Shown: positions 57,335 through 59,431 of the stretch, piece after piece
How positions within the stretch are numbered: the stretch's first letter is position 1
How the letters are laid out: each line of letters opens with the position of its first letter
Source of the DNA: a virus
IMG/VR virus record: IMGVR_UViG_3300003323_000328
Coordinates: 27,913 to 91,912 of that record
Strand: one strand, 5' to 3'
DNA length: 64,000 nucleotides
Translations under genes and position numbers: made by a program
Notes under the pieces: model-generated
The model's input: only the letters and a program-made list of their open reading frames with translations
The model's database searches: none
Told to the model about the DNA's origin: nothing

Positions 57335-57426
57335 TAAAAGATCATTATTGTTGCTACTATTACTATTACAAAAAGCACTATAACTCCAATAGGAGTTAAG
57401 TTACCAATTAATTTCTTTTCTTCCAT
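57334..57426 (-). CDS. Tiny single-span membrane protein (30 aa)
   Basis: A 30-codon frame from ATG at 57426 overlaps the end of the uracil-DNA glycosylase gene by 26 bases and ends in a TAATG overlap with the next gene. It would otherwise leave a gap in a gapless operon. The product has a charged start (MEEKKLIGN) and then a hydrophobic segment (VIVLFVIVIVATIMIF) that forms one membrane span. The coupling on both sides makes it likely to be real. The function is unknown. Confidence 0.6.
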   Translation of the reverse strand: MEEKKLIGNLTPIGVIVLFVIVIVATIMIF

Positions 57427-57943
57427 GTTGTTTTAAAAAATTGTTTGTTTTACTAAAATATTTACCACCACTAAAAGTTTTAGGATAATCAGGAATTACC
57501 ATACCGAATTGATCTCTATTATAAAGATCAGCAGCAGGATGTTTACCTTTTAAAACTAAATGATTATTAGTCTCAACTTTAGTTTTATTATAAACAGTTA
57601 CTACATCATTAAAAAGACTTTGAGATTCATTACCCCATAATATAAATACTTTAGGTAAATGATCATCCCACAACTCATATACGATTTTTTTAACTATACG
57701 TTCCCAACCTATTATTTCTTTATGTGAATTAGGTTTGCCTTTGCGTACAGTTAAACAACTATTTAATAGTAATACTCCTTGTTTAGCCCAATGTTCAAGA
57801 CTAAAATCATAATCTAATTTTAGTCCATTATAAAGATCATTTTCAACTTCTTTATATATAATATCTAAAGATTTACCATAAGGTTTAGTAGCTCCATTGA
57901 GGTAACCAAAAGCTAGTCCATTAGCAGTACCGTCATTATAAGG
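57401..57943 (-). CDS. ung: Uracil-DNA glycosylase, exon 2
   Basis: 180 codons continuing the gene whose exon 1 is at 58820-59431. Joined after the intron, the product reads VVIIGQD then PYNDGTANGLAFG, the family 1 UDG motif GQDPYHGxGQAxGLAF with His replaced by Asn. This exon carries LLLNSCLTVRKG and the second active-site region KGKHPAAD, with the histidine at residue 339 of the joined 384-residue protein. It excises uracil from DNA. It cannot be translated as a functional enzyme without splicing. The TTG at 57946-57944 straddles the splice site and is not a real start. Confidence 0.9.
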   Translation of the reverse strand, partial: PYNDGTANGLAFGYLNGATKPYGKSLDIIYKEVENDLYNGLKLDYDFSLEHWAKQGVLLLNSCLTVRKGKPNSHKEIIGWERIVKKIVYELWDDHLPKVFILWGNESQSLFNDVVTVYNKTKVETNNHLVLKGKHPAADLYNRDQFGMVIPDYPKTFSGGKYFSKTNNFLKQHGRKEINW

Positions 57944-58819
57944 CAATTTTGTTATCGTATAAATTCTTTATTTTATACTTCTAATACTTTATCATCGTAT
58001 TAGTTCAGACTATATCATCACTTATATTAAGTGTTGGACGCTCGTGTTGAGTTTATTGCTTCGCTTGCTCACTCATTAGTCGTTGAACGTTCATGGTACT
58101 TTTCCAGCGTTCCCATGCTTCGCTGCTGATTGCCCTTAATTCCAGATGGGTTTCCAGCAATTCATCCAATTTATACAGGACTCCTTCATAGATAAAAATC
58201 ATATTTTTATACACAAAAGACTTCATATAATTTCCTCTAGCTGCTGCAGCTAAACTGATAGCACTTAAATTAAGTGTTTGTGCAGCATCTTTAGCAGAAA
58301 TATATTTTTTAATAAACTTACCAGAAATAGAAAATTGATATACAGTCTTATTTAATCTTTCGGCAGTCATTTGAGTTGTTTTAATTTTTTCAAGCATTGT
58401 TGCTCTATAGATAGGGTCTTTCCATTTTTCTTTTCTAATTGCACTCATCTTATCTTTGAAATCTTGAGTACTAGAACTACCTTCTCTAATAGCTCCAAAT
58501 TGATTAACTATTTTAAAACTATTATCAAGTTTATAAATATTTATCCAATGTTGCTCTCTTTCTATATAATTATCACAAACTTCAATAACTTCAAAAGTTA
58601 TATAATCTCCATTAATAAAAGCATCAATAATTGATTTACACCCTTTACCTATTAAATTATTTTTAATATTATAAAGATGTACTGCCTTTCTTTTACTTAG
58701 GTTATTAGTAGAACCTATATAAATAAGACGTTGATTATGTGCTTTTAGAGCGTATACTCCGGGTAAATTTGGAACTTTCATGTCCAAAAATAATTAATTT
58801 AACCAAAAATAAAAATTTA
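57944..58819 (-). mobile_element. Group I self-splicing intron in the uracil-DNA glycosylase gene
   Basis: 876 bases between GQD and PYN codons. The 5' exon ends in T and the intron ends in G, as in group I introns. On the minus strand the core elements are seen in order: P and Q, AATTGCTGGAAA with AATCAGCAGC (58122-58162, forming P4-P5 with a CCC/GGG pair); R, GTTCAACGACTA (58077-58088); S, GATATAGTCTGAAC (58003-58016). R and S pair through GACTA/TAGTC (P7). A TAATAC/GTATTA hairpin near the 3' end could be P9. I could not assign P1 with the 5' exon with certainty. The splice points come from the protein motif. Confidence 0.88.
58053..58787 (-). CDS. Intron-encoded GIY-YIG homing endonuclease
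   Basis: 244 residues. The GIY-YIG domain shows LPGVYAL at residues 7-13 and YIGSTNN near 24-30. A NUMOD1-like DNA-binding module lies near 165-215 (VYQFSISGKFIKKYISAKDA). The start is 32 bases inside the intron. The last 38 codons, which are richer in G and C, lie over the P, Q and R elements of the ribozyme core, so this end of the protein evolves under RNA constraint. The enzyme would cut intronless alleles of the glycosylase gene and let the intron spread. It is a second, different GIY-YIG enzyme from the one at 1525-2169. Confidence 0.88.
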   Translation of the reverse strand: MDMKVPNLPGVYALKAHNQRLIYIGSTNNLSKRKAVHLYNIKNNLIGKGCKSIIDAFINGDYITFEVIEVCDNYIEREQHWINIYKLDNSFKIVNQFGAIREGSSSTQDFKDKMSAIRKEKWKDPIYRATMLEKIKTTQMTAERLNKTVYQFSISGKFIKKYISAKDAAQTLNLSAISLAAAARGNYMKSFVYKNMIFIYEGVLYKLDELLETHLELRAISSEAWERWKSTMNVQRLMSEQAKQ

Positions 58820-59431
58820 ATCCTGTCCAATTATTACTACTTTAGTATGATCAAAAGTACAAAGTTTTAATGCTCTAAATACTCTTTCAGGAGAAGGATA
58901 GATAGTATAAACTTTTCTTTCAGCTTGTACTCTAGCCCTTATACCTTTCATTAAATCACTTGTAAAAACTTTTTCTAGTAGCTCATACCAATTAGTACCA
59001 ACTTTATTCATCCAAGTAAATCCATCTGGATTAATAGATCGCATTCCTTTATGACGTCTATCCCAATGGTATAAAGGAACATATACTTTTAGTTCAGTTG
59101 TATCCTCAAAATGAAAGAATTGTCCAAACTCTAAAGCTCTTTGTTTAGTGATTACATAATCATGAGTTCTAGTCTCATAATGTATATCATCTACATTTTG
59201 TAAGATAGTGTAATTAATACTCCAAGCATTAGTTTTTCTGAATATATTCTTTTCATCTTCAAACTTAGTATATAAAATATTATTTTGACCCAAAAGTATA
59301 TGCCCAATACACCTAATCTCCCCATCAATATCAATAAAAACTCTACCACCTTCTTCTGGCTTATATATAATCTGTCTGCCATTTTTATCGGTATAATTAA
59401 GAAGCTTTTGTAACTTTTCCTCTACGCTCAT
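58820..59431 (-). CDS. ung: Uracil-DNA glycosylase, exon 1
   Basis: 204 codons ending at the catalytic aspartate of GQD, just before the intron, where unspliced translation meets TAA at once. Residues about 145-204 match the UDG N-terminal region: NWYELLEKVFT, AERKVYTIYPSPERVFRAL, HTKVVIIGQD. The first 140 residues are not part of the usual enzyme of about 225 residues and form an extra domain with several aromatic and acidic residues of unknown function. It overlaps the upstream 98-residue gene by 35 bases. Joined to exon 2, the product is 384 residues. Confidence 0.9.

Follow-up and report, generated by a model that had tools for sequence, protein, structure and literature searches.

A predicted mobile group I intron at the active-site aspartate codon of a phage uracil-DNA glycosylase gene, and its same-site relatives

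The interrupted UDG gene and its insert

The window, the whole 64,000-nt stretch that was analyzed, stems from a 91,912-bp IMG/VR record of crAss-like phage DNA and carries on its minus strand a family-1 uracil-DNA glycosylase (UDG) gene with an 876-nt insert directly after the codons for GQD. The phage has PHROG matches to terminase, portal and major head protein, and its terminase is nearest (33-35%) to those of phages cr115_1, cr10_1 and similar, which we take to be crAss-like phages; the class of the window phage rests on these names. Exon 1 (58820-59431, minus strand; 204 codons) comprises an N-terminal extension of about 140 residues followed by the start of the UDG domain, and ends with ATT GGA CAG GAT (IGQD). 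Exon 2 (57401-57943, minus strand), which matches PF03167, opens with CCT TAT AAT (PYN) and runs to a TAA stop codon. Both exon edges, GQD and PYN, had been named in an earlier note on this DNA and were confirmed on the minus strand.

When joined, the exons form 384 codons without an internal stop. The alignment of the joined product to family-1 UDG, a check proposed in the earlier note, yielded 190 bits with NF003592 (cut-off 162), compared to 49 for exon 1 and 124 for exon 2 alone. The profile match is contiguous: exon 1 accounts for profile positions 3-65, exon 2 for 66-220, and as these segments abut, no UDG residues are missing or duplicated at the joint. With TIGR00628, the joined protein scored 176.9, slightly below the cut-off of 185.75. 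The motif residues D204, P205 and Y206 (GQDPY), N265 (LLLN motif) and H339 (HP motif) are all present, the Asp of GQDPY presumably being the general base equivalent to D64 in E. coli UNG, and the residue following GQDPY is Asn, where His is usual. The start MSVEEKL lines up with the starts of the full-length homologues L005-L007. Residues 1-140 (window 58817-59431) lie outside the UDG profile and are common to L005-L007, L016 and L040 while most phage UDGs are without them; this shared extension speaks in favor of 59431 as the start.

The insert (57944-58819, minus strand) ends with G, and its first codon in the exon frame is TAA, so that an unspliced message would end directly after the catalytic Asp, as had been claimed. 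A covariance search of its minus strand with RF00028 matched the full model (1-253) at 57981-58234 with 80.1 bits and E=1.7e-20 (gathering score 50 bits), a region corresponding to the ribozyme core from P3 to P9. A search of the entire parent record returned this one match, again with 80.1 bits; a fast gathering-mode Rfam scan of the whole window missed it, a filter effect. The P, Q, R and S elements and the terminal G that the earlier note had read from the letters were all found in the insert. The R element GUUCAACGACUA (58077-58088, 5' half of P7), the S element GAUAUAGUCUGA (58005-58016, 3' half of P7) and the P9 hairpin (57981-58003) were placed by the RF00028 alignment, and the P3 strands UUGGAUG (58163-58169) and CGUCCAA (58034-58040) by covariation. 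A P9.1 hairpin, GUAUAAA/UUUAUAC, follows at 57957-57978 and shows two-sided changes in six of its seven pairs among the A-type relatives described below. All these elements lie on the minus strand. The RF00028 match together with the joined UDG above its NF003592 cut-off bears out the claim that a group I intron sits directly after the Asp of GQDPY.

Guide pairing and covariation identified ACAGGAU at the end of exon 1 (58820-58826, minus strand) as the 5' half of P1. Its partner, the internal guide GUCCUGU (58175-58181, minus strand), is located 3' of most of an endonuclease open reading frame and directly before P3. Just upstream of the guide, AAGG (58183-58186, minus strand) pairs with CCUU of exon 2 (57940-57943, minus strand) as P10. 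P1 thus has 7 bp with a terminal U.G at the 5' splice site, and P10 has 4 bp. By inspection, no conventional guide was seen near the intron's 5' end, the sole 7-bp match being located downstream of the ORF start.

In the transcript, the intron would fold and the guide would pair with exon 1 to form P1, whereupon guanosine would attack after the terminal U of exon 1. P10 would then position exon 2, joining the GQD and PYN codons, and the predicted spliced joint, GGACAGGAT ligated to CCTTAT, would be translated into the 384-residue UDG. We put the probability that the insert is a mobile group I intron, spliced to give a full UDG, at a little over nine in ten. Exon continuity, ribozyme fold, guide pairings, ORF family, empty sites and recurrence are visible in the sequence, and from these we infer splicing, cleavage, homing and separate expression.

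As the sequence comes from metagenomic assembly only, the gene might instead be broken, with an intron incapable of splicing and with halves that are either non-functional or act together as a split enzyme. Both exons are open, though, with D204, Y206, N265 and H339 conserved, the ribozyme helices are intact and covarying, and the intact exons in 12 same-site cases speak against decay; we consider a broken gene very improbable. The metagenomic nature of the record likewise raises the question of an assembly chimera or misjoin mimicking an insertion, which appears next to impossible given that a complete ribozyme with matching guides fits both exon edges exactly and that same-site introns were found in independent metagenomes.

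The endonuclease frame within the P1 loop

The intron contains an ORF of 242 codons from ATG (58053-58781, minus strand) that is absent from the earlier note. Its product carries a GIY-YIG domain (PF01541, 29.9 bits; cut-off 22.6) and a NUMOD1 domain (PF07453, 27.5 bits; cut-off 22.8), and reached 39.0 with TIGR01453, below the cut-off of 56.05. The endonuclease start precedes the guide, so that the loop of P1 is taken up by the ORF. The 3' part of this frame has a double role, its final codons (GVLYKLDELLETHLELRAISSEA...) also serving as guide, P3, P4 and further ribozyme core.

Homing would require that the GIY-YIG/NUMOD1 protein cuts intronless UDG alleles (a GGACAGGATCCTTAT-type site), at or near the insertion point, in co-infecting phages, and that repair of the cut allele copies the intron in. 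The activity of the enzyme is uncertain from its sequence, as the GIY-YIG score is modest and no close relatives occurred in the phage record collection or the viral contigs. These two points are also what an intron that splices but is immobile, with a degenerate or inactive endonuclease and vertical inheritance, would lead one to expect. The closest UDG relatives (~48% identical) are intronless and too distant to date the arrival of the intron, which is equally compatible with immobility. In contrast, the 242-residue ORF is open with both domains above their Pfam cut-offs, and the protein retains the start of the motif, GVYAL...RLIYIGSTNN, along with the NUMOD1 DNA-binding domain. An immobile intron is possible but doubtful, and we favor the mobile intron.

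ORFs reaching into an intron core require tight control (PMC3984707). As the endonuclease frame crosses guide and core, the protein would most likely be translated from non-splicing RNA, e.g., from transcripts starting at a promoter inside the loop. Such an mRNA would have no 5' splice site and be unable to splice, so that translation across the core would not interfere. A short distance 5' of the endonuclease start codon, TATTTTTG (58785-58792, minus strand) matches the -7-like motif TANNTTTG; within this AT-rich stretch the match is weak alone, and TATTTTTG is a possible candidate for an intron-internal promoter. TANNTTTG occurs near the intron start in six of the 12 UDG-site introns, where 1.2 would be expected. 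By inspection, TTG-N19/20-TANNTTTG is located directly 5' of the intron endonuclease start codon in L087, L242 and L254, an arrangement that resembles a Bacteroidota promoter.

Same-site introns in other phage UDG genes

Viral contigs were searched with the exon-2 protein only, so that the search had no bias for or against introns. The GQD/PY junction was uninterrupted in 112 of 115 loci; L050 was incomplete, and L087 and L088, which are identical, were interrupted at the same base as the window. A pattern of exon 1 followed by TAA together with a second scan, with duplicates removed, brought the distinct interrupted UDG genes to 12 (window, L087, L129, L218, L242, L244, L248, L250, L253, L254, L261 and L288), a lower bound because the main pattern demanded TAA and CARGAT. 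Uninterrupted related phage loci, including syntenic relatives, number more than 110. The closest relatives have an empty site with the MazG neighbor kept in L040 and L042 and the Thy1 neighbor in L042; no near-identical pair of phages with and without the intron was found. The same exon-1/stop pattern gave 12 matches in bacterial and archaeal genomes, none of them in a UDG gene, suggesting that the UDG intron site is phage-borne at this sensitivity. The pattern scan GTCYTGTATAAATTG was discarded; among the matches listed, most were chance 15-mers.

RF00028 matched L087 with 96.7, L261 with 93.5, L244 with 84.8, L254 with 76.2, L129 with 68.9 and L248 with 53.5 bits. The match to L250 fell into two pieces of 41.1 and 40.9 bits, both below the cut-off. 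This UDG-site intron (L250 3691-5374; 1685 nt) has a LAGLIDADG ORF in its P1 loop and another in a later loop, the latter interrupting the RF00028 match. L242 and L253, searched inside long loci only, gave no match; in core sequence they closely resemble L261 and L244. L218 gave no match even when searched alone; it was accepted as an intron on its predicted guide pairing, exon continuity and compensatory changes in P4, where several pairs are altered, and P7. Its P7 (intron at L218 1103-2133) differs by two compensatory pair changes, GACUA/UAGUC to GCAUA/UAUGC, with the presumed G-binding G-C pair retained. L288 is the weakest case, as a long distance separates its guide from the core and the third P10 pair fails. 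Its 851-nt GQD-site insert, on the reverse strand, starts with TAG, and most of it is taken up by a 260-residue ORF with a CxxC-type motif pair, which had no PHROG match and was not recognizable as an endonuclease.

The introns provided a further means of judging the helices. Across P1, P3, P4, P7, P8 and P9.1 of six A-type introns, 96.9% of the positions were paired, as opposed to 31-46% when the partners were slid, and two-sided pair changes amounted to 18 versus 5.0 in shuffles, with none of 500 shuffles reaching 18. L040, a related full-length phage UDG that is 48% identical, reads continuously across GQDPY; this read-through and the helix covariation together indicate that the intron match in the UDG insert is not due to chance.

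Covariation also extends into silent positions of the exons. Position -7 of P1 coincides with the wobble base of the Gly codon; nine introns have A opposite guide U there while L244 and L254 have U opposite guide A, and L242 is mismatched (permutation p 0.0018, ignoring kinship of the introns). In 10 of 12 introns, the third P10 pair is formed with the wobble base of the exon-2 Pro codon, again a silent position, the codons CCT, CCA and CCG accompanying AGG, TGG and CGG, respectively (p 0.0015 for the base and 0.0008 for helix length, from permutations ignoring kinship). These covarying P1 and P10 changes recur within the closely related B group. The intron is preceded by CAGGAT in 11 of 11 interrupted genes, whereas among 47 uninterrupted relatives carrying CARGAT only 8 have this hexamer (p 3e-7, kinship ignored); CAAGAT occurs in most of the uninterrupted relatives, and the interrupted set comes from a scan limited to CARGAT. 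The excess of CAGGAT fits a P1 constraint, co-conversion, or both. The earlier note had further suggested that placement at highly conserved bases protects the intron from deletion and keeps its target site in relatives. That the site is occupied in 12 or more distinct UDG genes of phages is in line with this, whereas the DNA target itself is conserved only in part.

Exchange of modules, origin and known systems

The ORFs in the P1 loop belong to different families. The window has GIY-YIG, and L087, L129, L218, L242, L250 and L254 have LAGLIDADG_2; endonuclease-VII-like (EndoVII-like) ORFs occur in L244 and L248 (by PHROGs) and in L253 and L261 (by similarity to L244 and L248). L242 and L261 have cores that are 93-96% identical and unrelated enzymes, and EndoVII-like enzymes with 53% identity to each other accompany an A-type core in L248 and a B-type core in L261, strongly indicating that enzymes and ribozymes have been exchanged at the UDG site. 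The ORF continues past the guide in nine introns and ends inside the guide region in L087 and L218. Because the ORFs read past the guide, unrelated enzymes share their C-terminal residues (VLYK or VLxK, then ELLE or similar). With the guide being part of the endonuclease gene, an adjustment of P10 to a silent host-gene change would force an amino-acid substitution in the endonuclease (Arg, Trp, Gly or Met ahead of the VL(Y)K tail). A P1-loop ORF as a feature unique to UDG introns was not firmly upheld, as a few of 76 other introns, compared by means of a small nuclease panel, may read into the core (e.g., L386 and L403).

On balance, we regard the phage UDG GQD/PY junction as probably a repeatedly invaded site, where ribozymes of two types and endonucleases of three families recombine as P1-loop modules and where host silent sites and the parasite's protein co-evolve via RNA pairing. 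A single ancient insertion with endonucleases swapped later would explain that the same base and the same guide are used and that all 11 introns with a clear guide beside P3 have a P1-loop ORF. The cores, however, split into types A and B. Based on 157 columns, the B-type UDG introns formed one clade (100/100), the window core paired with a Proteus phage terminase intron (96/89), and a single clade for all ten introns tested, and with it one origin of all UDG-site introns, was weakly rejected (AU p 0.044, at the poor resolution of these columns); a single clade for the five A-type introns was not rejected (AU p 0.154). A single insertion thus appears unlikely, and repeated invasion of the site remains our preferred reading.

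Several features have counterparts in known systems. T4 td/I-TevI and the introns of Bastillevirinae (PMC11878797) and of crAss-like phages (PMC7886860) likewise combine a self-splicing core in a conserved nucleotide-metabolism or structural gene with a loop-borne endonuclease and a stop codon shortly downstream of the 5' splice site; the introns described here differ in having UDG as the host gene and a P1-loop ORF that encodes the guide. The nearest in core sequence (~73-77% identical to the window's) are Flavobacterium phage Fpv introns and the Proteus phage 3H10_20 terminase intron, which differ in host genes, guides and ORF location, their nuclease ORF being placed after the core, unlike the P1-loop ORF of the window. 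Endonuclease ORFs overlapping the core (PMC3984707, Fig. 2b) resemble the frame of the window in entering it, but the overlap in the UDG introns takes in the guide, so that the codon before VL(Y)K (AGG, CGG or TGG) varies with the host gene's half of P10. An rDNA site occupied by different endonuclease families (PMC3943268) is similarly a conserved functional site that was independently occupied with unrelated endonucleases, whereas the UDG site is protein-coding, in phages, and associated with LAGLIDADG, EndoVII-like and GIY-YIG enzymes.

Introns placed at active sites, ORFs that overlap the core, and a single conserved site used by different endonucleases have already been described (PMC3943268, PMC3984707). 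Introns are abundant in crAss-like phages, and the host genes given in PMC7886860 are others than UDG. A search of the open-licence literature returned no report of a group I intron-interrupted UDG gene; UDG as an intron host and the recurrent GQD/PY site are apparently undescribed, each element being known in kind. The analysis adds an intron host gene, with no earlier report found, and a naturally occurring series of introns that occupy one site in divergent phages. Within this series, insertion base and guide are common while ribozyme type and endonuclease differ, which suits it for tests of endonuclease/intron pairing and swapping. Gene calling turns such interrupted genes into two fragments and an endonuclease, which leaves the UDG content of phage genomes under-annotated, and some UDG-site introns escape default Rfam scans. 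A second GIY-YIG homing endonuclease (phrog_314) is encoded at 1525-2169 on the plus strand of the window; with the record's only group I intron match being that in the UDG gene, this endonuclease may be free-standing or reside in an intron that the model missed.
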